This document shows positions 31,179 through 42,085 of a DNA stretch of 64,000 nt, piece by piece; position 1 is the stretch's first letter, and the number at the start of each line of letters is the position of its first letter. The DNA comes from Paraburkholderia aromaticivorans (GTDB lineage: Bacteria; Pseudomonadota; Gammaproteobacteria; Burkholderiales; Burkholderiaceae): assembly GCF_002278075.1 (NCBI RefSeq), contig NZ_CP022990.1:744001-808000 (forward strand), written 5' to 3'. The notes beneath the pieces are model-generated. The model saw only the letters and a list, made by a program, of their open reading frames with translations, was not told the origin of the DNA and searched no databases. The position numbers were made by a program, and so were the translations under genes.

Positions 31179-32777
31179 CTATCCGTTCGACGCCACGCCG
31201 CGCACCCGCGCGGGCTCTCCTCTGCCGGCCAGCAGCCAGACGCCGGCCGCGATCGACAGCGCCACGGCCGCGGCCAGACCCAGCGCGGCGGCAAAGCCGC
31301 TCGCGAAGCTCGCTTGCGCCGCCGACATCAGCGTGGCTCGCAGCGCGGGCGACAGCGTCGCGCTCGCCTGCGCCGTGTCGCCGGCCAGCACGCGCGACAT
31401 GAAGCCGGCGTCGAGCGCGGCTTTCACCCCGGCGGTCAACGGCATCGCCGCGAGGAAAGCCGCGTGAGTCCGCGCCGCGAGCACCGCGCCGAGCACGCCG
31501 ACCGAAGTAACGATGGCGGTGAAGCGGGTCGTCGTGCTGATACCGGAGGCCATGCCGGTCCGATCCGGCGGCACGCAAGCCATGATCGCCTTCTGCGTGT
31601 CGCCGTTCAGGATCCCCGCGCCGAGCCCCGTCACGACCATGCCGAGGGCGACCAGCGCATAGCGCCCGCCGCCCGCGGTCAGTGCCGTCAGCAGATTGCC
31701 GAGCGCGATCAGCAGCAAGCCCGCCGACAACAATGCCATGCTCGACACGCGCTTGCCGAGCGCGGCACCAAGGTACGGCCCGGCCACCATGGAAAGCGCG
31801 AACGGCAGCATGCCGACACCCGCGGCCACCGCCGACAGACCGAACGCGTTCTGCAAATATAGCGGCAGGAACGTCATCATCACCTGCGCGCAAGCGGCGT
31901 AACCGAACATGGCGAGCACCGCGGCGACAAAACGCGGCTGCCTGAACAGCGCGAGATCGACCATGGCATGGGCGCGCGCCCGCTGCACCTGGACGAAGAC
32001 GCCGAACAACAGCGCGCAGGCCGCGAACCGTGCGACGGTGCGCCAGCTCGCGAGGCCGTCGGCCGGCACTTCGATTAGCGCCCAGATGCCGAGCGCGAGC
32101 GCGACGCCGAACAATAGGCTGCCGGCGACATCGAGCGGACCCGGTTTGGGATTGCGCGACTCGCCGATCACGCGTGACGTGCACCACGCGAGCAGCGCGC
32201 ACACGGGCAGATTGAGCAGAAAGATCCAGCGCCAGCCGAGCCATTGCGTGACGACGCCGCCGACCAGCGGCGCGACCGTGGTCGCAAGGCCCATGCAGGT
32301 GCCCCACACGGCCCACGCGCGCACGCGGGCGGGGCCTGCGTGAAACGTGTTCGCGATCACGGCCAGCGCGGCGGTGAGCAGCATTGCCGCGCCGACGCCC
32401 TTGACCGCGCGCGCGACGTTCAGCAGCGCTGCCGTCGGCGCGACGCCGCAACCGAGCGATGCCACGAAAAACACCGCGAGCCCGAGCAGCAGCATCAATT
32501 TGCGGCCGACGCGGTCGGCTAGCGCACCCGCGGGCAGCAGGCACGACGCGAACGCCACCATGTATGCGCTGACCACCCATTCGACGTCGGCGAAACTCGC
32601 GTGGAACGAGCGGGCGATCGACGGCAGGGAAACCGCCACGACATTGGTGTCCAGCACGATCAGCGCGCAGGTAGCCGACGCGGTGGCCAGCACGAAGGCG
32701 GCGTTGACGGGCTGTGAGGGTGGCGTCGAGGGTGACGATGAAGGTGGCGGGACCCGATGTGTGAACAGATGCGGCAT
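31179..32777 (-). CDS. MFS transporter, DHA2 family
   Basis: A 532-residue, about 14-helix exporter. Motifs: LDTNVVAVSLPSIARSF in helix 1, GALADRVGRKLMLLLG, ARAVKGVGAAMLLTAALAVI, and GWRWIFLLNLPVCALL. The long loop near the C-terminus (between the last two helices) is typical of the 14-TMS group. It is divergent from a LysR gene with 90 bp between them, so probably regulated by it. Substrate unknown. Confidence 0.9.
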   Translation of the reverse strand: MPHLFTHRVPPPSSSPSTPPSQPVNAAFVLATASATCALIVLDTNVVAVSLPSIARSFHASFADVEWVVSAYMVAFASCLLPAGALADRVGRKLMLLLGLAVFFVASLGCGVAPTAALLNVARAVKGVGAAMLLTAALAVIANTFHAGPARVRAWAVWGTCMGLATTVAPLVGGVVTQWLGWRWIFLLNLPVCALLAWCTSRVIGESRNPKPGPLDVAGSLLFGVALALGIWALIEVPADGLASWRTVARFAACALLFGVFVQVQRARAHAMVDLALFRQPRFVAAVLAMFGYAACAQVMMTFLPLYLQNAFGLSAVAAGVGMLPFALSMVAGPYLGAALGKRVSSMALLSAGLLLIALGNLLTALTAGGGRYALVALGMVVTGLGAGILNGDTQKAIMACVPPDRTGMASGISTTTRFTAIVTSVGVLGAVLAARTHAAFLAAMPLTAGVKAALDAGFMSRVLAGDTAQASATLSPALRATLMSAAQASFASGFAAALGLAAAVALSIAAGVWLLAGRGEPARVRGVASNG

Positions 32778-32867
32778 ACAGGCAGCAATATCGGAAGGAA
32801 AGTCACGTTATGGTAGCGAGCCGTCTATTTCCTGTCATTGGCATAAAATCACAAAATAATTAGCCTG

Positions 32868-33761
32868 ATGGAAATACCTAAAACCATGCGGCAACTCGAA
32901 CTCCGCCATATCCACGCTTTCATTTGCGTCGCGAAGCAGCTTCATTTCTCGCGCGCCGCGCACGAATTGGGAATCGCCGCGCCGTCGCTGACCAAGCTGA
33001 TTCAGGAGGCTGAACGGCTGCTCGGCGTGCGGCTCTTTCATCGCACCAAGCGCTCGGTCGTGCTGAGCGCGGCGGGCAGCGCCTATCTCGCCGAGGCGCT
33101 CGTTGCGCTCGATCACCTCGCACGCGGCGAAGAGCGCGCGCTGCTTGCCGAGCGCGGCGAACTCGGGCGCGTCGAAGTCGGCTATGTGGCGTCGGCGGCC
33201 TATGCCGGCGTGTTGCAGCGGGACGTGGGCGGATTTCGCGACACGCGGCCGGGCGTCGATATCTCGATCCGCGAAGTGCCGATGGACAACATTGCCGCGA
33301 TGTTGCGCGACGGCCTGCTCGACGCGGCTTATGTGCGCCCGCCAATGCCGCTTGCCGAGGGCATTCAGGCCACGACCGTGCATCGCGACCGGTTCGTCCT
33401 CGCGCTGCCGGCCGACTGCGCGCTGGCCGCCTCGGCGAACGTGAAGCCGGCGCAACTGCGCGAGCAGTGCTTCGTGCTGCCGGAACAGGAAGCCGGCACC
33501 TTCGAAGTCGCGCGGCGCGGCCGCTTCTCCGCGCGGCTCGGACCGCGCCCCGGCACGCTCGCCTCGGTGCTGGCCTGTGTGTCGCTCGGCGGCTACGTCG
33601 CCGTCGTGCCGCATACGCTGGCCGACTGCATCGCGTTGCCGGGTGTGGTGTATCGGGGTATCGCCGGTCAACCCATCGCTTCGGAGATCGCGATTGCCTT
33701 CCGGAAGTACGAGCGGGCCCCGGCCGTGAAGGCGTTTCTCGACTTCGTCCGGCACAGGTGA
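32868..33761 (+). CDS. LysR-family transcriptional regulator
   Basis: A 297-residue LysR-type regulator with HTH segment HAFICVAKQLHFSRAAHELG, then SLTKLIQEAERLLGVRLFHR. It is divergent from the DHA2 exporter gene at 32777. The short AT-rich gap (ATAAAATCACAAAATAATTA) is the only A+T island here and likely carries both promoters. The effector is unknown. Confidence 0.9.
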   Translation: MEIPKTMRQLELRHIHAFICVAKQLHFSRAAHELGIAAPSLTKLIQEAERLLGVRLFHRTKRSVVLSAAGSAYLAEALVALDHLARGEERALLAERGELGRVEVGYVASAAYAGVLQRDVGGFRDTRPGVDISIREVPMDNIAAMLRDGLLDAAYVRPPMPLAEGIQATTVHRDRFVLALPADCALAASANVKPAQLREQCFVLPEQEAGTFEVARRGRFSARLGPRPGTLASVLACVSLGGYVAVVPHTLADCIALPGVVYRGIAGQPIASEIAIAFRKYERAPAVKAFLDFVRHR

Positions 33762-33837
33762 CGCCTGCCTGAAAATCGGCCTGAAACCGGCCTGACGCGG
33801 CGGCAAACGACTTCTGCTCAACACGCCGGCCGCTTTT

Positions 33838-33861
33838 CGTTATATCCTGCCGAATATCACG
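33838..33861 (+). promoter_or_regulatory. ModE-type operator, copy 1
   Basis: CGTTATAT-N7-AATATCACG. The 24-bp layout (conserved arms, seven-base centre) is the same as in three other copies at 34572, 37794 and 37876. It resembles the ModE consensus, in which CGTTATAT and an inverted AT-rich arm flank a short spacer. It precedes the unknown gene at 33976. Confidence 0.7.
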
Positions 33862-33886
33862 GTAGGCTTCGTGGTGTGTGGCGGCG

Positions 33887-33922
33887 CGTCTTTCAATGCG
33901 TCTTTCAGCACGTTTTTCAGCG
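33887..33922. repeat. 12-bp imperfect tandem repeat, three copies
   Basis: CGTCTTTCAATG, CGTCTTTCAGCA and CGTTTTTCAGCG follow one another, 25 bases after ModE-type box 1. A similar 12-bp array follows box 2. Confidence 0.75.
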
Positions 33923-33975
33923 TGTGCGCCAGCCGCGCGTCATGAGCCGAAACAAGCAGGCAGGAGCCAGTCGCA

Positions 33976-34533
33976 TTGCGCAGCCGATCCATTTCATCCG
34001 CCCCGGCGGGACGCCTCGGGCGCTTGCCGAGCGAGCTCTCGTCGACCATCGTCGCGGGGAAGTCCGCGTCCGAGCGCGGCCGCGCCGAATCGATCCGCGA
34101 TGTGGTCGACGCCTACCGGCGGCTCTATGGCAGCCTGCAGCGTTTCGTGCTGATGCTGACCGCCGACCAGTTGAATTTCGCCCCGGTCGGCACGTCCGGC
34201 TCGCATTCGCTGAACCAGTTGCTGTCGATCCTCGCCGAACAGGCGAGCGTGGCCGCGTTCGTGCGTCTGCGCGACCTGAAAGCGGCAATCGAGGAAGCGC
34301 GCTGCGCCGAACAGTTGCGCGACGCGATTTTTTCCGACACGTTCAGCAACGATCTCGCTGCGCTACGCAAGGTGGTCACAGAACTTGAACGGCTCGACGC
34401 GGCGTTTGTGGGCCTGTGCGTCGGCCATGTGCTCGACCAGCACGCATGGGCGGCGGGCGAATTGAGCGCCGCCAGCGCGGTACGGCACAAGACCCACGCC
34501 GCCGAACCCGCCCTCGCCCGCTCCAACGATTGA
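33976..34533 (+). CDS. Hypothetical protein downstream of a ModE-type box
   Basis: Up to 185 residues from a TTG at 33976. The true start is uncertain; the well-formed part begins around DVVDAYRRLYGSLQRFVLML. The protein is helical and cytoplasmic with no recognised domain: LNQLLSILAEQASVAAFVRL, then RDAIFSDTFSNDLAAL, with two scattered cysteines. The only functional clue is context: it lies between two ModE-type operators at the head of the molybdenum block. I do not know its function. Confidence 0.5.
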   Translation: MRSRSISSAPAGRLGRLPSELSSTIVAGKSASERGRAESIRDVVDAYRRLYGSLQRFVLMLTADQLNFAPVGTSGSHSLNQLLSILAEQASVAAFVRLRDLKAAIEEARCAEQLRDAIFSDTFSNDLAALRKVVTELERLDAAFVGLCVGHVLDQHAWAAGELSAASAVRHKTHAAEPALARSND

Positions 34534-34571
34534 TTCGCGACCACCGCAGATGAACGTTTTCTCTCGCCCAC

Positions 34572-34595
34572 CGTTATATCTTGCCGAATATATCG
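34572..34595 (+). promoter_or_regulatory. ModE-type operator, copy 2
   Basis: CGTTATAT-N7-AATATATCG, the same 24-bp layout as the other three copies and nearly identical to copy 1 through the spacer. It lies upstream of the DUF2325 gene at 34742. Confidence 0.7.
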
Positions 34596-34637
34596 CCGAC
34601 CGCGCTCGCGCGGCGAATGTGCGCGGCGCGCTTTACA

Positions 34638-34709
34638 CGCACCTTCATACGTACCTTCGCGCGCACAGTCGCACGTACCTTCGCACGTACGTTCGCACGC
34701 ACCTTCAAT
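34638..34709. repeat. 12-bp tandem repeat, six copies, in the DUF2325 leader
   Basis: Six imperfect copies of CGYACCTTCGCA lie between ModE-type box 2 and the DUF2325 start. A short plus-strand frame from the ATG at 34617 reads through it as a repeated Arg-Thr-Phe-Ala peptide and stops inside the next gene (34784). Confidence 0.85.
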
Positions 34710-34741
34710 CCGCCTGACACCGAACCGGATTCGAGATCCCC

Positions 34742-36091
34742 ATGCCCACGCCCCCGTTCCGTCTCGCCCAGCCCCCACGCCTGAAACTGTCCGGCGACGA
34801 ACTCGCCGTTACCGGCATGCGCGCCGATCCGTGCTGCACGCCCGCCAAGGTGTCGTTCCCTCACGCCAAACGGCGCGCGCGCCTCGCCGAACTCGACAGC
34901 CATTTGCATTGCTCGATCATCGGCACGTGTCTGGGCACGCACGAACTGCGCAAGCTGGTGCCCAAATTTACGGCGCTCGATCGTCACGACGCGAGCGATC
35001 TGCAGATTCATCATTCGGCAGTCGAACTCGCGATCGAAGGCGGGGCGGCCGCCAAAGCGCTGCACAAGCTGCTCGACGAACACTATGCCGGCGCAATCCG
35101 CCGCTTCGACAGAGCCACCGACGACGTCACCCTGCTCGAGCTCTGGGATGAAGCACTGAAAAGCGGCGACATCCCGCCGGCCTATTGGGCGTTGATGACG
35201 CATCCGTGCGCAACCATGCCCGTGCGCCAGAAAGCGTTCGGCGAATTGCACATGCTGTCGCATCTGGTCGGCGCTGCCAATCGGGCGGACATTCGCCGGC
35301 TCGTCGCGCTGGAAGAAGAAAACGCCGCATTGAAAGAGAAAATCGACCGACAGCAGAGCCGTTTGCAGGAACTCAGCCTGCAACGCGACGCGTCGATTGC
35401 CGCGCTCAACGAGCAGATCGCCCGGTTGACGGCACAGACATCCCTTCAGACGCCGCCCGACGCCGCCGGCCTCGAAGCCGAGGTGCAACGGCTGCGTGAC
35501 AAGCTGGCCGATGCCGATCAGCGTGTCGCACTGCATACGAACCGCCGCGAGGCCGCGGAACAGCGCGTGCTCGCGGAACAGGACGCGGCGCTCGCGCTAC
35601 GCAAGCGCTACGACCAGACGCTGACGCTGCTCAAGCTGGTGCAAGACGAATGCGACGCCCTCGAACACGCGACGGTGCATGCCGCCAGCGCGGCGAGCGG
35701 AGCGGGCGCGCGGCGGGCGAGCCTCGACAGCGTGCGCAGCAAGCGGATCGTGTATGTGGGTGGCCGGCCGGGCTCCAACGCTGCGCTCAAGCGACTGGTG
35801 GAAGCGGCCGGCGGCGATCTGGTCGTGCACGACGGCGGCGTGGAAGATCGCAAAGGCCTGCTTGCCGCGGCGTTGCCGGGTGCGGATCTGGTCGTGTTTC
35901 CGGTTGACTGCGTCGATCATGATTCGATGAACACGCTCAAACGGGTTTGCGAGCGCCATCGGATCGACTACCACCCGCTGCGCACGGCGAGCGTGGCGAG
36001 CTTCGTCGAGTTGATGGCCCGCCTGCATCCCGAGAATCTCGCGCAACTCGGCAATCCGACGCCCACGTCATTTTGCCTGCGGCACGGCTAG
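34742..36091 (+). CDS. DUF2325-domain protein of the molybdenum block
   Basis: A 449-residue cytoplasmic protein. The N-terminal third has His/Cys-rich segments (RADPCCTPAK, LDSHLHCSIIGTCLGTHELRKL). A long coiled coil spans about 190-320. The C-terminal DUF2325 domain (about 345-435) begins KRIVYVGGRPGSNAALKRLV and contains DLVVFPVDCVDHDSMNTLKR, a Rossmann-like alternation with conserved Gly, Cys, Asp and His. The biochemical role of DUF2325 is not established. It lies 146 bases after a ModE-type box and is convergent with modE, so a molybdenum- or nitrogenase-related role is inferred. The start ATG at 34742 has only a weak ribosome site (GAGAT). Confidence 0.82.
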   Translation: MPTPPFRLAQPPRLKLSGDELAVTGMRADPCCTPAKVSFPHAKRRARLAELDSHLHCSIIGTCLGTHELRKLVPKFTALDRHDASDLQIHHSAVELAIEGGAAAKALHKLLDEHYAGAIRRFDRATDDVTLLELWDEALKSGDIPPAYWALMTHPCATMPVRQKAFGELHMLSHLVGAANRADIRRLVALEEENAALKEKIDRQQSRLQELSLQRDASIAALNEQIARLTAQTSLQTPPDAAGLEAEVQRLRDKLADADQRVALHTNRREAAEQRVLAEQDAALALRKRYDQTLTLLKLVQDECDALEHATVHAASAASGAGARRASLDSVRSKRIVYVGGRPGSNAALKRLVEAAGGDLVVHDGGVEDRKGLLAAALPGADLVVFPVDCVDHDSMNTLKRVCERHRIDYHPLRTASVASFVELMARLHPENLAQLGNPTPTSFCLRHG

Positions 36092-36115
36092 ACGTGCCCT
36101 GGCGCCCTGGACCGC

Positions 36116-36517
36116 TCAGGAGCGGATCAGCCGGGTCAGTTCGGCAATCTGTTTCGCGCAACTTCGCTGCGCCTCGACTTCGACGTCGCGATACAGACGA
36201 ATGATGGTTTCGCCGACGGGCGTCAGCGTGCAGCCTCCGCCGCTCTGGCCGCCCTGCTCCGAATGCGTGGCAGGCGACTTGAGCGAACGGTTCAGTTCGT
36301 CGATCAGCAGCCACGCGCGCCGGTACGACATACCGAGGCTGCGCGCCGCAGCCGAGATCGAGCCGAATTCGCGCACGGCTTCGAGCAATGCGACTTTGCC
36401 CGGTCCTAATGCGACCGCGTCTGCGCTGCGGATGCGCATTCTGAAGCGCACTTCGGGCCGCGCCTTCGCGGCTTTCTTCGCCGCGGAGGCGGGTTTGGTT
36501 TTTGGGGTGTCGGCCAT
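36116..36517 (-). CDS. modE: Single-domain ModE-type molybdate-responsive regulator
   Basis: A 133-residue protein consisting of the ModE N-terminal winged-helix domain only: VALGPGKVALLEAVREFGSI, SAAARSLGMSYRRAWLLIDE, and a wing segment with GGQSGGGCTLTPVGE. The C-terminal molbindin (TOBE) domains of full-length ModE (about 260 residues) are absent, so it either senses molybdate through another protein or acts as a constitutive binder. The ATG at 36517 follows nifQ. Four ModE-type operators in the neighbouring 4 kb are its likely targets. Confidence 0.85.
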   Translation of the reverse strand: MADTPKTKPASAAKKAAKARPEVRFRMRIRSADAVALGPGKVALLEAVREFGSISAAARSLGMSYRRAWLLIDELNRSLKSPATHSEQGGQSGGGCTLTPVGETIIRLYRDVEVEAQRSCAKQIAELTRLIRS

Positions 36518-36569
36518 GCGCGAAAGGATACACGAACCATCTCGTGCCGCCACCGCGGCCAAGCCGCCA

Positions 36570-37149
36570 TCAACGCGGGCAGGGGAAGCAGTGCCCATAG
36601 TCTTCGCAACCGGGACAACCCGGCGCCGGGCCGGGCCGTAGGCCCAGTGACAGCGCCCGGTGCTGCGCGAGGAATTTCTTCCACCGCAGGTCGGCGACGT
36701 TTAGCGCCACGAGGGTCGGGAAATGGCGTGGAGCATCCGGATGACTTCGTCGCGGCCGGCGAGCCCGAGGTCGCGCCACAGATGATCCGGGTGCAAACAG
36801 GCATGGGCGATGATCGACGCGAGACACTGCGCGTCGTGCGCATCGACGGCGGCGCTGGCGTGCGTGAGCAACAGCGCGTGGAGCGTGCGGACGAATTCAG
36901 CGTGGCGGCCGGCGTCGGCCGATGGTGGCGGCACGGCGGCCGCGTCGGAGCGCGTGAAATGCCGCGCCAGCACTGCGCGCGACGCCGTCGACTGAAGGCC
37001 GAGCAGCGCGAGTTCGTTGCGCACCTCACGCGCGGCGACCAGTTTGGGAAAAGCTGGGTATCGGGCGACCTGGCGTCCTTCGCGGCATTCAGCCAGGCGG
37101 CCACCCGCGCCGCAACCTGCGCATCTTGCGGCAACGGCGGCGCGTTCAT
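36570..37149 (-). pseudogene. nifQ: nifQ with two one-base frameshifts
   Basis: NifQ supplies molybdenum for nitrogenase FeMo-cofactor assembly. Homology is clear but split over three frames. The N-terminus MNAPPLPQDAQVAARVAAWL starts at 37149. The middle has VAAREVRNELALLGL, LLLTHASAAV and HPDHLWRDLGLAGRDE. The C-terminus has HFPTLVALNVADLRWKKFLA and GCPGCEDYGHCFPC. Frame changes are near 37047-37050 (a T-run one base short) and 36727-36733 (one base short). Either these are assembly errors or the gene is dead. The Cys pattern shows the last three canonical cysteines (C-x2-C-x5-C) plus an extra one, while the first, four residues upstream, appears as Gly. It lies between the sulfite-oxidase-fold gene and modE. 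Confidence 0.8.
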
Positions 37150-37232
37150 ACCGGATGCGGATGGCAGCACCGGCAACCCGCGCAAGCGGATCGTCAGACA
37201 GGCGGCAACAGGATGAGGACCGGCGGGCCCTG

Positions 37233-37751
37233 TTACGCATGCCGCTCATGGCTCGCGTGCAGCTGGGCCGAAGAGGTCAAAACGTGCGCCTCGATTCGCG
37301 CGAGCCGTTTGACATGGCGCGGCGCCGGCAGGATGTCCGATCCGGAAAACAGGATCGGCGCGCCGTCTTCGGCGTCGAGCGCACGGCCGCCGCATTCGTA
37401 GGCCACCAGTACGTTTTCGCCGACGGGCGTGTTGAAGAGTTCATGCCATGAAAACGTCACGAGATAGCCGTCATGTCCCACCGCGACGAACACCGTGCGC
37501 TTGAATTCGCCCGGCACGCTGTTGGGCAGACCCGCTTCATTGATGAGCGTCGTCAGACGCACGCCGCGATACGGCTCGACGGTGCGGATGAGGCGGTTCG
37601 TCGTATAGCAGCGCAGATCGAACGGCGTGGCCACCACGCTTTCGTAGCGCCTGAGTTGATCGAGGCCGAACGAAAGCGGCCGCTTGAATTGCCCGCTCAG
37701 CACGAGCGCGCCCGTAACGGCGGGCGCGGCAGTCACATTCACTTGATCCAT
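37233..37751 (-). CDS. Molybdopterin-dependent oxidoreductase-fold protein (sulfite oxidase-like)
   Basis: A 172-residue protein with the Oxidored_molyb (sulfite oxidase/YedY) fold: ALVLSGQFKRPLSFGLDQLR, VATPFDLRCYTTNRLIRTVE (with the conserved Cys that ligates Mo in the family), YRGVRLTTLINEAGL, and TFSWHELFNTPVGENVLVAY. There is no signal peptide, unlike YedY, and it is short, so it may be a cytoplasmic carrier or minimal enzyme. ModE-type box 3 is 43 bases upstream. It is the first gene of an apparent operon with nifQ and modE; its stop at 37233 lies 83 bases before the nifQ start. Confidence 0.82.
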   Translation of the reverse strand: MDQVNVTAAPAVTGALVLSGQFKRPLSFGLDQLRRYESVVATPFDLRCYTTNRLIRTVEPYRGVRLTTLINEAGLPNSVPGEFKRTVFVAVGHDGYLVTFSWHELFNTPVGENVLVAYECGGRALDAEDGAPILFSGSDILPAPRHVKRLARIEAHVLTSSAQLHASHERHA

Positions 37752-37793
37752 ACGCGCTTATCTCCAGCATCGACGCCCGAACGGCCGGCATCA

Positions 37794-37817
37794 CGTTATA
37801 TCCGCGCGTATATTACG
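37794..37817. promoter_or_regulatory. ModE-type operator, copy 3
   Basis: CGTTATAT-N7-TATATTACG, the best match to a ModE palindrome in the window. It lies in the divergent region before the sulfite-oxidase-fold gene (start 37751). Confidence 0.8.
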
Positions 37818-37875
37818 CGGTAATGACGCCCGCTTGAAGCGACCGGCGGCGTCACAGCACGCAACGCGGCGACGT

Positions 37876-37899
37876 CGTAATATAGCGCTCTTAATAACG
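37876..37899. promoter_or_regulatory. ModE-type operator, copy 4
   Basis: CGTAATATA-N7-TAATAACG, i.e. the same 24-bp element in inverse orientation, 15 bases before the modA ATG. It overlaps the likely promoter or leader, as expected for repression by ModE. Confidence 0.8.
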
Positions 37900-37914
37900 T
37901 ATCGGGGTTGTCGC

Positions 37915-38793
37915 ATGATTCGCAAGCTGCTCGCTCCTTTCCTGGTCGTCACCGGTATGGTTGCCGCCACGCCTGCGCTGGCGCAGGACGACACGGTCAA
38001 CGTGCTGTACGCCGGCTCGCTCGTCAATCTGATGGAGCGCAGCATCGGCCCGGCATTCGAAAAGACCACGGGCCAGCATTTCCGCGGCTATGCGGCGGGC
38101 TCGAACAAGATCGCCAATGAGATCAAGGGCCAGCTGCGCCGCGGCGACGTGTTCATCAGCGCGAGCCCCAAGGTGAACGACAGCCTGATGGGCGCGGCGA
38201 ACGGCGATCATGTCACGTGGTACGTGAGCTTCGCCGAATCGCCGTTGATGATCGGCTACAACCCGCGCAGCAAATTCGCGGCCGGGTTCACGAGCAAGCG
38301 CTGGGACCAGGTGCTGCAGGAACCGGGCATCCGCATCGGCCGGACCGATCCGAAGCTCGACCCGAAGGGCGCGTTCACCGTCGAGATGATGAACCGGGCC
38401 GCGCAGCTCTACCACCAGCCGGACCTCGTGCAGAAGACGCTCGGCGCAGCCGAAAACCCCGAGCAGGTCTTGCCTGAGGAAACGCTGGTCGGCCGCCTGC
38501 AATCCGGCCAGCTCGACGCCGGCTTTTTCTATTCCACCGAAACGTCCGACCTGAAGATTCCGGCGATCCGCCCGGCGCCCGAATTGCAGGCCAAGGCCAG
38601 CTACACGCTGACGATTCTCAGCGACGCGCCGAACCGCGAAGGCGCGAGCAGCTTCGCCGACTTCCTGTTGAGCGCGCAAGGCCGCGCGCTGCTCAAGCAA
38701 CACGGCGTGGACGTCGTCAAACCGACGGTGAGCGGCAACCTGCAAGCCATGCCGCCTTCGCTGCAAGCCGTGATCGACGCCGCCACGCAGTGA
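37915..38793 (+). CDS. modA: Molybdate/tungstate ABC transporter substrate-binding protein
   Basis: A 292-residue periplasmic binding protein. The signal peptide MIRKLLAPFLVVTGMVAATP ends at ALAQDD. The mature chain begins VNVLYAGSLVNLMERSIGPA, which is the ModA/WtpA-type anion-binding fold, and includes GYAAGSNKIANEIKGQLRRG. The YAGSL start is closer to WtpA/TupA-like proteins than to E. coli ModA, so tungstate is also possible. The ATG at 37915 is chosen because the longer frame from 37834 overlaps operator copy 4. Its stop overlaps the GTG of the fused transporter gene. Confidence 0.88.
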   Translation: MIRKLLAPFLVVTGMVAATPALAQDDTVNVLYAGSLVNLMERSIGPAFEKTTGQHFRGYAAGSNKIANEIKGQLRRGDVFISASPKVNDSLMGAANGDHVTWYVSFAESPLMIGYNPRSKFAAGFTSKRWDQVLQEPGIRIGRTDPKLDPKGAFTVEMMNRAAQLYHQPDLVQKTLGAAENPEQVLPEETLVGRLQSGQLDAGFFYSTETSDLKIPAIRPAPELQAKASYTLTILSDAPNREGASSFADFLLSAQGRALLKQHGVDVVKPTVSGNLQAMPPSLQAVIDAATQ

Positions 38794-40661
38794 GCACGGC
38801 AAAACGCACCGCTGCGCGTCCGCTGCTGTGGCTGGCGGCGCTGCTGGCCGTCTATCTGTGCGCGCCGTTTATCGCGAGCGTGCCGCAACTCGGCGCGGCG
38901 GACTGGGCGAACGTCGACTGGCGCGCCACGTGGTCGGCGGTCGGGATCTCGGCGGCGAGCGCCAGCGTCGCCTCGCTGGCGATTTTGCTGGGCGGCGTGC
39001 CGCTCGGCTATTTCCTCGCGCGTTCGAACTCGCGCAAAGTGGCGCTACTCGGTTTCTTCGTGCAGTTGCCGCTGGCGCTGCCGCCGCTCACGAGCGGCGT
39101 GCTGCTGCTGTTTCTGCTCGGCCCGTATAGCTGGGTCGGTCAGGTGACGCACGGCAGGTTGACGGATTCGTTCGCCGGCATCGTGCTCGCGGAAGTCTTC
39201 GTCGCCGCACCGTTCCTGATCATTGCCGCCAAGTCCGCGTTCGCCGCCGTCGACCCGGTGCTCGACGACGTGGCCGCGACCCTCGGCCATCACGCCGGCA
39301 GCCGTTTTTTCCGGGTCATGTTGCCGGTTGCGTGGCCGGCGATTCGCGCGGGACTCGCACTCGCGTGGCTGCGCGCGTTCGGCGAATTCGGCGCGACCGT
39401 GATGGTGGCCTATCACCCCTATTCGCTGCCGGTCTATACGTACGTGGTATTCGGCGGCCAGGGGTTGCCGGCGATGATGCCGCTATTACTGCCGACGCTC
39501 GCCATCGCGATCGTATGCGCGGCGCTGTCGATCTACAGCCTTCGGCAAAAGAGCGCGCTCGAACAGACCGAACACGGCGACGACGCACTGGAACCCGGCG
39601 CGGACCCGACCGCGAGCCGCGGCGAAAGCGCGGACCTGCGCCTCGCCTTTCATTTGCAGCGGCGGCTCGGCGCGTTCGATCTCGACATCGCATGGACGCC
39701 GCTCACGCGGCGCCTCGCGATCATCGGACCGTCGGGTTCGGGCAAGTCGCTGGCGCTGCGTCTGATCGCGGGGCTGGAGTCCAACGCGTCGAGCAGCGTG
39801 ACGCTCGGCACGACGCAATTGAACACGCTGCCACCCGAACGTCGGCAGATCGGCTATATGCCGCAAGACTACGGCCTGTTCCCGCATATGACGGTGGCGC
39901 AGCAACTGGCCTTTCCCGCCGACGCCGACCCCGCCAGCGCGCGCTACTGGCTCGACCATCTGGGCCTCGCGCGGCTGGTCGCGCGCCTGCCGCGTCAACT
40001 GTCGTTTGGCCAGCGTCAGCGGGTCGCGCTGGCGCGAGCGCTGACACGGCACAGCGAACTGCTGCTCTTCGACGAGCCTTTCGCCGCGCTCGATACTCCG
40101 CGGCGACGCCGCTTGCAGCAGTCGTTGCAGGCTCTGCAGCGCGAGATCGCGGCGGTGACGATCATCGTCACGCACGATCCCGATGAAGCCGCGCTGCTGG
40201 CTGACGAAGTACTGGTGGTCGAACAGGGCCGTGTGTTGCAAGCGGGCTTTATCGACGCCGTGTTCGAGCGGCCGGCTTCCATGCGCGTGGCCGGCCTGCT
40301 CGGCTTGCACAACGTCGGCGAAGGGGTGATGAGCGCTTCGGGCCAGGTGGAGATCGCGCGGGGCCTCATGCTTGCCACGGGCGGCAGCGGGTTTGCTCTC
40401 ACTGCCGGCGAGCGGGTCATGTGGCGCGTGTCGTCGCACGCCATCGTCGTGACGGACGAAGGCATGCATGCCGGTGTGGTCGACGCGGTCGAGTTGCGGC
40501 GCGGCGAGCGCTATGTCCGCGTGAATATCGCCGGCGTCCGTTTCGATATCGCCAACGAAGAGACCCGGCTGCGTGAAGGCGCGCGGTGCCGGATCGATAT
40601 CCGCGCTTCAGGCGTTGCGGTCTGGCAAGCGGGCGGCGTGCATCAGGCTTCGTGCGCGTGA
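38790..40661 (+). CDS. Fused ModB-ModC molybdate ABC transporter (permease plus ATPase)
   Basis: A 623-residue protein joining two subunits usually encoded apart. Residues 1-250 are a ModB-type permease with five to six helices and the EAA-like segment DDVAATLGHHAG followed by MLPVAWPAIRAG. A 30-residue linker follows. Residues ~280-500 are an ABC ATPase with Walker A GPSGSGKS (Lys319), signature LSFGQRQRVALARAL and Walker B LLLFDEPFAALD. The last ~110 residues resemble a TOBE/molbindin domain (ELRRGERYVRVNIAG). The start is a GTG at 38790 overlapping the modA TGA, so the two are translationally coupled. It imports molybdate with ModA. Confidence 0.9.
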   Translation: MSTAKRTAARPLLWLAALLAVYLCAPFIASVPQLGAADWANVDWRATWSAVGISAASASVASLAILLGGVPLGYFLARSNSRKVALLGFFVQLPLALPPLTSGVLLLFLLGPYSWVGQVTHGRLTDSFAGIVLAEVFVAAPFLIIAAKSAFAAVDPVLDDVAATLGHHAGSRFFRVMLPVAWPAIRAGLALAWLRAFGEFGATVMVAYHPYSLPVYTYVVFGGQGLPAMMPLLLPTLAIAIVCAALSIYSLRQKSALEQTEHGDDALEPGADPTASRGESADLRLAFHLQRRLGAFDLDIAWTPLTRRLAIIGPSGSGKSLALRLIAGLESNASSSVTLGTTQLNTLPPERRQIGYMPQDYGLFPHMTVAQQLAFPADADPASARYWLDHLGLARLVARLPRQLSFGQRQRVALARALTRHSELLLFDEPFAALDTPRRRRLQQSLQALQREIAAVTIIVTHDPDEAALLADEVLVVEQGRVLQAGFIDAVFERPASMRVAGLLGLHNVGEGVMSASGQVEIARGLMLATGGSGFALTAGERVMWRVSSHAIVVTDEGMHAGVVDAVELRRGERYVRVNIAGVRFDIANEETRLREGARCRIDIRASGVAVWQAGGVHQASCA

Positions 40662-42085
40662 GCCCGGCGCCTGATCCCGGCGAGCGTTTCCTCCACCAGC
40701 AACTGGCCGGACTCGAAAACCGTCACCAGCGCCTCGTCCCAATCACCTTCAACCATGCGTTCGTCCCACGTGACAGGCAGTGCCGCCGTTCGATACTCGC
40801 CCGTGCGCCGATTCACCAGCAGCGTCAGCCGCCCTTTCATCGAGCGCTTCGCGGCGTCCGTGACCGGATCCTTGAGCACGTCGTGCCACACGTCGCCTAA
40901 GCGGATCGCGGAGCATTTCATCGCAAAGCGCTGCGTATCGCGGTTGATCTGCTGCAACAGCGCGCCGCCCATGCCGAACACGATGTTGTCCGTCGCGAAA
41001 CCGGCTTCGTCCATCGCGGCGAGAATCGCTTCGATCGAGTCGGGATTCACGCCGTCGCCTTGAATCACACGCACGTTGTTGAGCACGCGCCGCCCTTTGC
41101 CGTTCACCGCCGAGCCGAACGACGCCTCGAGCGCCTGCATGGTGTGCAGCACGATCGTCCGCGGGTCGCCGGAGTCCGGCCGGATCACGAGCATGCCGCC
41201 GGAGTCGAGCACCGCCTGCTTCAACTCCGTGCCCCAGACGCGGAGCGCGGCGAACAGATCGTAGGAATCGGACACCACCGAAACGATCGCGCCCGGCTTG
41301 CCGAACTGCGCAAGCATGTTGCGATACGCGTCGGTTTCCCGCTCGCGGCCCCATGAGGTGATCGTGCTGTGCTCCGCCGCGGGCACGGAAAACGCCGCCA
41401 TCGCCTCGTGGTAGTAGTGGTTCGCCGCGACCACGCCGAGCACGGTATCCGAGCCCATGAAACTGACCAGGTGCGCCGCGCCGCCAATCGCCGCCGACTC
41501 CGCGCTCGACACCCCGCGCGCGCCGAAGTCGTGCAGCTTGAACGGCAATTGGGCGAGGTCGTCGCTGCTCCTGAGCAGATAGCCGCGGATCGTCTTGCGC
41601 AGATGCCAGCTTTGCGTCGCCACCGTAATCGGATACCACACGCGCAGCAGCATGGTTTCCAGATACGAAGCCAGCCAGAACACCTGCGGATCGTCGCATT
41701 CGACCGTGACGAGCACGTTGTGCACCGGCACGACCGAGCCCTCCGGCACCGCGCGAATGCGCACCGGCAAGTAGCCGCCGTGGTGTTCGACGATGTAGCG
41801 CCAGCCGGCCTCGTTGAACGGCTCGCCGTGCGCGGTGAAAAATGCCCTGGCCTGCTCGATCATGGCCGGCGTGACCGGGCGGCACAGATATTCCTTGATC
41901 AGCATCTGCAAACCGAAGAACAGCGTGCGATCGTAGCGCCCGCCGCGCGATTCGATATACGAGAACATCGCCGACGCTTCGGGTGGATATTGCAGATAGT
42001 GCGACGCCTTGTACGAATCCGTGTTGAGAATCGGATTGGCGAGGATCGACGCGATATCGGTGAAACCGCTGGACTGGTTTTGCAT
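40643..42085 (-). CDS. nadV: Nicotinamide phosphoribosyltransferase
   Basis: A 480-residue NAMPT/NadV enzyme that makes NMN from nicotinamide and PRPP for NAD salvage. Seen: NPILNTDSYKASHYLQYPP, FSYIESRGGRYDRTLFFGLQ, the catalytic His in VPAAEHSTITSWGRE, and the substrate Asp in VIRPDSGDP. The length matches bacterial and animal NAMPT. The ATG at 42085 is preferred over a TTG six codons upstream. The 3' end overlaps the convergent modB-modC gene by 19 bases. No PRPP synthetase or NMN adenylyltransferase gene is nearby, so it is a stand-alone salvage gene. Confidence 0.95.
   Translation of the reverse strand: MQNQSSGFTDIASILANPILNTDSYKASHYLQYPPEASAMFSYIESRGGRYDRTLFFGLQMLIKEYLCRPVTPAMIEQARAFFTAHGEPFNEAGWRYIVEHHGGYLPVRIRAVPEGSVVPVHNVLVTVECDDPQVFWLASYLETMLLRVWYPITVATQSWHLRKTIRGYLLRSSDDLAQLPFKLHDFGARGVSSAESAAIGGAAHLVSFMGSDTVLGVVAANHYYHEAMAAFSVPAAEHSTITSWGRERETDAYRNMLAQFGKPGAIVSVVSDSYDLFAALRVWGTELKQAVLDSGGMLVIRPDSGDPRTIVLHTMQALEASFGSAVNGKGRRVLNNVRVIQGDGVNPDSIEAILAAMDEAGFATDNIVFGMGGALLQQINRDTQRFAMKCSAIRLGDVWHDVLKDPVTDAAKRSMKGRLTLLVNRRTGEYRTAALPVTWDERMVEGDWDEALVTVFESGQLLVEETLAGIRRRAHAHEA

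Follow-up and report, generated by a model that had tools for sequence, protein, structure and literature searches.

A locus with four conserved ModE-type operators in Paraburkholderia aromaticivorans: a probable molybdenum regulon with a short ModE, a DUF2325 protein and a 185-residue protein of unknown family

The ModE protein of Escherichia coli represses its targets when molybdate is plentiful. Several described systems are close to the locus reported here. For ModE sites of the E. coli type the consensus ATCGCTATATANNNNNNTATATAACGAT has been given, with a layout of 8-N8-8 (passage on the sites in PMC2700814); NifQ has been described as molybdenum donor for the nitrogenase cofactor FeMo-co in Azotobacter vinelandii (passage on NifQ in PMC11605450); and a DUF2325 protein of 104 residues, Cj1384, is found in Campylobacter in a cluster with katA (passage on the cluster in PMC9426514). 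Here we analyzed a locus of Paraburkholderia aromaticivorans which lies at 33.8–40.7 kb of a window of 64,000 nucleotides (the whole stretch of DNA analyzed, positions 744,001 to 808,000 of contig NZ_CP022990.1), the window being a part of replicon C2 of the 8.9-Mb genome. The locus has genes for a 185-residue protein of unknown family (P185) and a DUF2325 protein, then on the opposite strand a small sulfite-oxidase-fold protein (SuOx), a nifQ-like gene and a short modE, and then modA and a fused modBC. With the regulon of E. coli and Geobacter, as outlined in the relevant part of PMC2700814, it shares the palindrome layout, a ModE-type helix-turn-helix and molybdate-transport genes; it differs in that the window ModE is without the molybdate-binding half, and in that P185, the DUF2325 protein, the small SuOx and the NifQ-like protein are added to the set. 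We consider it probable, with good confidence, that the locus is a ModE-controlled regulon for the acquisition and handling of molybdenum, and the inclusion of both P185 and DUF2325 in a ModE-type regulon is very probable from the sequence. The type of regulon is known; new are the two members of unknown kind, a sensor-less regulator with conserved operators and a three-cysteine class of NifQ which is independent of nitrogenase.

Four palindromes of 24 bp, to which no strand is assigned, were found in the locus at 33838..33861, 34572..34595, 37794..37817 and 37876..37899, each having an arm of 8 bp, a centre of 8 bp and a second arm of 8 bp with the consensus CGTTATAT-N8-ATATAACG. The first-pass annotation had placed the same element at these four starts, correctly, and had given it a centre of seven bases, which is one base too few. 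The layout is the same 8-N8-8 as in the E. coli-type consensus (passage on the sites in PMC2700814), and the boxes are of ModE type as judged by their letters, as had been proposed. Boxes 1, 2 and 3, each matching at 15/16 arm positions, lie upstream of P185, of DUF2325 and of the SuOx-nifQ-modE unit, respectively; box 4, of which the left arm is CGTAATAT, matches at 13/16 and is centred 27 bp before modA begins, which is a repressor-like position.

A scoring matrix was trained solely on 235 boxes from relatives, and in the window it ranked the four boxes first to fourth (35.0, 33.0, 32.2 and 22.5, box 3 having the top score), the fifth place being at 15.5, so the earlier statement that the element occurs nowhere else in the window holds. 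In 20 windows simulated from the window dinucleotides no site reached 22.5, and the largest score was 15.4. A scan of the whole genome (8,907,716 bases), which the first-pass annotation had suggested, gave 18 places with at most three mismatches to the palindrome, where the reversed control gave 4, and at most one mismatch was found only at 33838, 34572 and 37794, the three best matches in the genome. Three mismatches were present at 13 places, which include the fourth window box and a 13/16 box on replicon C2, outside the window, which precedes the classical modA by 50 bp. Outside the mod loci there are 13 places, two with two mismatches and eleven with three; 11 of these 13 were inspected with a crude open-reading-frame caller, without family search, and several of those inspected fall within long reading frames. 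One of the two-mismatch boxes (C1:991790; L241:4991-5014) is immediately 5′ of a probable sodium/proton antiporter gene, as read from the sequence with no family search.

The conservation of the boxes was surveyed in two sets of loci. For the genus set 60 loci were fetched out of 88 relatives, 28 mostly weaker or fragmentary ones being left out, and the loci were selected by the presence of P185, so that P185 belongs to this set by construction. For the contig set (genome_contigs) a DUF2325 profile gave 459 relatives, of which the best 80 were used (Paraburkholderia, Caballeronia and Burkholderia records). A box was called when at least 12 of 16 arm positions matched and its centre was at most 300 bp upstream of a gene. 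By this rule an upstream box was found for P185 in 60/60 genus loci and in 57/57 contig loci having the gene, for DUF2325 in 57/60 and 77/80, for SuOx in 41/41 and 64/65, and for modA in 46/46 and 37/37; boxes kept before the same genes in relatives had been named by the first-pass annotation as support for its claim. None was found in the genus loci upstream of LysR (0/28), modBC (0/47), NAMPT-like (0/37), modE (0/60) or nifQ (0/50), and the counts for these genes in the contig set were 0/23, 0/46, 0/31, 3/80 and 7/53. Over the 60 genus loci 209 sites fell within the 60,798 positions of the four upstream stretches and 21 within the remaining 743,659, so that the density was 122-fold higher upstream of the four genes. 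In the box-centred alignment the arms have 1.69–1.75 bits per position against 0.35–0.73 in the 40-bp flanks, where the information of the arms is favoured by design since the best site per stretch was taken and sites below 12 were dropped.

The order of the genes is also conserved among the genus loci. P185 adjoins DUF2325 on the same strand in 60/60 genus loci and 57/57 contig loci, and DUF2325 adjoins modE on the opposite strand in 60/60 genus loci; in the contig set DUF2325 and modE are at most 1.5 kb apart in 78/80 and on opposite strands in 79/80. P185, DUF2325 and modE remain together in loci without modA and nifQ (e.g. L082, L084-L089). It could be thought that boxes 1 and 2 act on nothing but the mod genes nearby, with P185 and DUF2325 as bystanders, and we hold this to be most improbable because P185 and DUF2325 each keep their own box in loci that have no modA, such as L084-L089. 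P185 is present in 89/144 same-genus genomes, and in a plasmid collection six records have relatives of it at 38–47% identity. The closest named locus returned was that of Paraburkholderia xenovorans LB400, whose DUF2325 protein is 90% identical and from which nifQ is missing; this comparison may not include records closest to the window's own genome.

The extra genes in some loci of relatives encode a Porin_4 porin, a lipoprotein whose repeats are of beta-propeller type and a di-Mop protein with two TOBE domains, none of which is present in the window locus. Upstream boxes were found in the contig set for the porin in 7/9, the lipoprotein in 23/27 and the di-Mop protein in 7/12, and in the genus set for the lipoprotein in 16/21 and the di-Mop protein in 11/16, no porin being found there. 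The boxes of the lipoprotein and di-Mop genes may be shared with SuOx and modA, because both genes are divergent from these. In Caballeronia humi a perfect 16/16 palindrome (L173:9802) is located between modE and the porin gene, and this porin is a candidate molybdate porin.

The regulator encoded in the locus is a short ModE of 133 codons (36116..36517, minus strand) in which the DNA-binding domain was matched (HTH_1, 4.6e-7) and no TOBE (di-Mop, molybdate-binding) match was found, so the earlier description of a ModE with only the DNA-binding domain stands. Its best solved relative is PDB 2ijl (135 aa, 3.5e-21), a stand-alone ModE DNA-binding protein of similar length, which we take to be from Agrobacterium; ModE itself (1b9m) was matched at 1.2e-10. 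The short length is kept at 126–138 codons in 60/60 genus loci and 80/80 contig loci. Short modE closes the presumed SuOx-nifQ-modE unit, and in 60/60 genus and 77/80 contig loci no box was found upstream of it, so it is probably autoregulated through box 3.

A full-length ModE of 278 residues with two TOBE domains is encoded beside a classical modABC in the same genome (C2:2185830-2186663), and a second full-length ModE, 46% identical, is in the nif cluster (C3:650889-651611); a frame there that was tried as modC (L210:5880-6851) was rejected, as it is the nif-linked ModE. A free-standing di-TOBE frame occurs elsewhere in the genome at C1:4209611-4210015. It is a serious possibility, to which we give somewhat less than an even chance, that the boxes belong to the full-length ModE of C2 as its operators and that the short ModE is a modulator, either a competitor, an anti-repressor or a sensor-less heterodimer partner, and this is compatible with the rest of what we propose for the locus. 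The promoter of the classical modABC has the similar 13/16 box mentioned above; the short and the 278-residue proteins have 44% identity in an 81-residue stretch of their DNA-binding region, which would allow both to use the boxes; and a nearly whole-protein match to the full-length ModE is present in 126/144 genus genomes, all 144 having some match. Against it, the genome has its strongest boxes in the locus of the short ModE and not at the classical mod locus, and the short ModE is present in 80/80 contig loci. If the short ModE is the user of the boxes, it would need a molybdate sensor as partner because it has no molybdate-binding half, and this sensor would be either one of the cell's own full-length ModE proteins or a separate protein of the di-Mop kind.

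The transporter genes of the locus are modA (37915..38793, plus strand; PF13531, 2.4e-37), for a periplasmic oxyanion-binding protein, and modBC (38790..40661, plus strand; PF00528, PF00005), for a fused permease and ATPase. The best PDB relatives of modA were MA_0280, PH0151 and AF_0094, and the closest solved relatives are tungstate/molybdate binding proteins of the WtpA/ModA type, from which the window system differs in being bacterial and in having permease and ATPase fused in one protein. From its sequence, modA appears closest to the archaeal ModA/WtpA type. It scored 33.0 bits against TIGR01256 (ModA; curated cut-off 62.5) and 102 bits against the WtpA model NF003196 (cut-off 355), so that the WtpA models outscore the ModA models with all under their cut-offs. 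This likeness is what could favour a regulon for tungstate or another oxyanion rather than molybdate, which we judge unlikely because one of the solved proteins of that type, AF_0094, bears the name molybdate/tungstate binding protein, and because NifQ, ModE and the sulfite-oxidase fold are all features of molybdenum biology. A box-like sequence (11–12/16) at window 40509 recurs within the modBC coding region of many relatives, and is probably a by-product of protein conservation.

SuOx (37233..37751, minus strand; Oxidored_molyb, PF00174, 7.1e-10) is the first gene of the presumed operon SuOx-nifQ-modE, and the nifQ-like gene (36570..37201, minus strand, start uncertain) is of the three-cysteine class with an interrupted frame. 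PF04891 matches it in two pieces, both above the gathering score at more than 27 bits, in two frames which meet near 36.73 kb, and an intact relative maps onto both; two frame changes were considered and rejected, as this mapping leaves one junction. The frame break, which the first-pass annotation does not mention, may be real decay or an assembly error. An intact four-cysteine nifQ is present in the nif cluster on C3 of the same genome.

The four-cysteine NifQ motif is CX4CX2CX5C, and it was found in 18/18 nif-linked copies fetched and in the window genome's own copy on C3. The NifQ of the ModE locus has CX2CX5C only, in 49/50 and 52/53 rows (101/103, from overlapping sets), and none has four cysteines; the two exceptions, L045 and L121, are one contig on which the NifQ copy is incomplete (profile 58–150). 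With the protein of A. vinelandii, as far as the passage on NifQ in PMC11605450 describes it, the locus copies share the PF04891 family and a C-terminal cysteine motif. They form a clade of their own: in a tree of 91 distinct sequences (116 before identical ones were removed; six locus copies, lacking an end or read in an overlong frame, were dropped) the 72 locus copies stand apart from the 19 nif-linked ones. In the genus survey of 144 genomes nifH was found in 34 and NifQ in 120. The three-cysteine class, assigned by PF04891 score (96–124 bits against 141–178) and near-complete coverage, was found in 102 genomes, 84/110 without nifH and 18/34 with it (p 0.016, not corrected for kinship), a hint that genomes with a nif-linked NifQ lose the three-cysteine one more readily; one genome (G142) has a copy of the nif type only. 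A further 20 NifQ copies (L275-L294), located on another contig, far from DUF2325 or in a genome without full-length DUF2325, all have the three-cysteine motif. Two of the 20 adjoin locus genes, and the other 18, solitary and unboxed within the 3.4–3.5 kb examined, disprove that the class is ModE-boxed as a whole. The class is thus real and nitrogenase-independent, and is not always in the regulon.

P185 (33976..34533, plus strand) starts with TTG in the window, and in many relatives the aligned start is GTG. No Pfam or NCBIfam match was found for it, and the profile search gave no PDB match better than E 0.3; a relationship to the DUF2325 protein was rejected. No histidine is invariant in it, and C148 is invariant in one alignment (A3) and a glycine in some rows of another (A2), and on this account a partner or regulatory role seems more likely for P185 than that of a metal carrier.

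The DUF2325 protein of 449 residues (34742..36091, plus strand; PF10087, 3.7e-16) scored 59.5 bits against a gathering score of 33.6. It has the DUF2325 domain in common with Cj1384 as that protein is presented in the cluster passage of PMC9426514, and adds to it an N-terminal region bearing Cys and His, a coiled-coil-like middle and a tail of FCLRHG after the C-terminal domain. The middle part, presumed to be a coiled coil, gave weak PDB matches only, with no convincing relative by profile, and the proteins so matched are mostly coiled-coil proteins. Box 2 and the start of DUF2325 are separated by an imperfect 12-bp tandem array (5.9 copies, window 34636-34706), which may account for their greater distance here, 158 bp against 90–98 in many near relatives. 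No known RNA, the Mo/W-cofactor riboswitch included, was matched in Rfam at gathering scores within 32500-41500, and a sigma-70 scan, uninformative in this GC-rich genome, gave one promoter-like site away from every box.

In a class-wide search of 369 genomes a DUF2325 match was found in 20, own genome included. From 18 distant loci fetched, which include other families of the class, 15 proteins were aligned, three being left out for unclear frames, and the residues kept were H56 in 13, C57, C63 and H154 in 14, and D86, H90, H170 and H174 in 15, together with H363, D364, C390, H393 and C403 of the C-terminal domain in 15/15. The simplest reading of these conserved Cys/His sets would be two metal or redox sites. 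In the group of the ModE locus an N-terminal CCxP is found in 76/80 and an exact C-terminal FCLRHG in 71/80, and equivalents of C31, C32 and C445 are present in none of the 15 distant proteins; these marks may reflect ancestry rather than molybdenum. Ten of 113 frames neighbouring the distant homologues were scanned with Pfam and gave two TonB receptors, three ferritin-like proteins, a sodium/proton exchanger, a histidine kinase, a PDZ protease, a CbiX protein and one without match. Distant homologues near ferritin-like genes (L217, L221) and near TonB receptors (L212, L214) were so observed, and a link of the wider family to metal is suggested.

It was also considered whether P185 and DUF2325 are dedicated factors of the nitrogenase cofactor, which was one of two roles named in the first-pass annotation, the other being molybdenum homeostasis. 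The nifQ-like gene in the locus speaks for such factors, and so does a short DUF2325 gene which is beside nifQ in the nif clusters of 16/34 genomes with nifH (own included) and of 0/110 without it, smaller or other nif DUF2325 fragments (G009, G012, G020, G037, G074, G078, G109 and G143) being excluded from this count. FCLRHG is the exact C-terminus in half of the 16 fetched relatives with a match to the short protein (one weak, L272), and also in the copy of the window genome. In the same nif cluster a frame of 233 residues without Pfam match (L210:10652-11350) is located between nifQ and the short DUF2325, and each of the 18 nif loci fetched has a match to it. Against a cofactor role, P185 and full-length DUF2325 do not follow nitrogenase: P185 was found in 19/34 genomes with nifH and 70/110 without (Fisher p 0.43), and full-length DUF2325 in 20/34 and 79/110 (p 0.20), neither value being corrected for kinship, so that 70 of 89 P185 carriers and 79 of 99 carriers of full-length DUF2325 are without nifH; and the NifQ of the locus is of a different class from the nif-linked one. 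We therefore regard the nitrogenase-cofactor role as very unlikely, and of the two roles general molybdenum homeostasis is the one that fits P185 and DUF2325 better.

The proposed mechanism has four transcription units, namely P185, DUF2325, SuOx-nifQ-modE and modA-modBC, to which we infer the operons to correspond. A dimer of the ModE family would bind each palindrome and, by analogy with E. coli, would shut the units down when molybdate is plentiful. P185 and DUF2325 would be proteins of molybdenum homeostasis not specific to nitrogenase, and the DUF2325 protein may be a cytosolic metal-binding protein which passes molybdenum or a Mo-Fe-S precursor to or from NifQ-type proteins; this chaperone function is the role we prefer for it, tentatively and with about one chance in three. 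Still less secure, and doubtful as a whole, is a joint reading in which genomes of Burkholderia type would have a nitrogenase-independent delivery of Mo-Fe-S, made of three-cysteine NifQ, DUF2325 as two-site metallochaperone and P185 as its partner, leading from the boxed transporter to molybdoenzymes or storage, with these genes in many carriers under a sensor-less ModE signalled by a partner protein, and with short DUF2325 and four-cysteine NifQ serving in nif clusters. Our confidence in it was lowered slightly by the 18 of 20 NifQ copies that are solitary and unboxed.

Several points weigh against the reading of the locus as a ModE-controlled molybdenum regulon. The genus and contig sets share organisms and their counts are not independent. 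P185 has no detectable relative of known function by Pfam, NCBIfam and PDB searches, the short ModE scored 78.6 bits against TIGR00637 (curated cut-off 98.5), and the full-length ModE proteins could be the real users of the boxes. In the 3.4–3.5 kb examined around them, the 18 solitary NifQ copies have no other locus gene and no box. Next to the distant full-length homologues of DUF2325 no mod or nif gene was found, save two hits to the ATPase half of modBC which any ABC ATPase gives, and hence molybdenum is not the general context of the family. With these points taken in, the molybdenum regulon remains the probable reading. Among the open-licence papers searched, in which 'ModE' also matches mode and model, none was seen to connect DUF2325 or nifQ with ModE.

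In genome papers nifQ is counted as a nitrogen-fixation gene in Burkholderia strains. It is so listed in B. cepacia BRDJ, with one protein of the NifH/frxC family (PMC9503923), and in B. stagnalis YJ-2, where 'nifH' is absent from the main text (PMC12195442), neither source naming nifD or nifK in its relevant passages; B. contaminans NZ is said, in the passage concerned, to have nifHDK as well (PMC8483353). The class of NifQ described here is common in Paraburkholderia-type genomes, is without one cysteine of the cluster motif and does not track nitrogenase. P185 and the Cys/His-bearing DUF2325 protein are placed by the present analysis in molybdenum homeostasis, with promoters that can be tested, and a NifQ-like function without nitrogenase is now directly testable.

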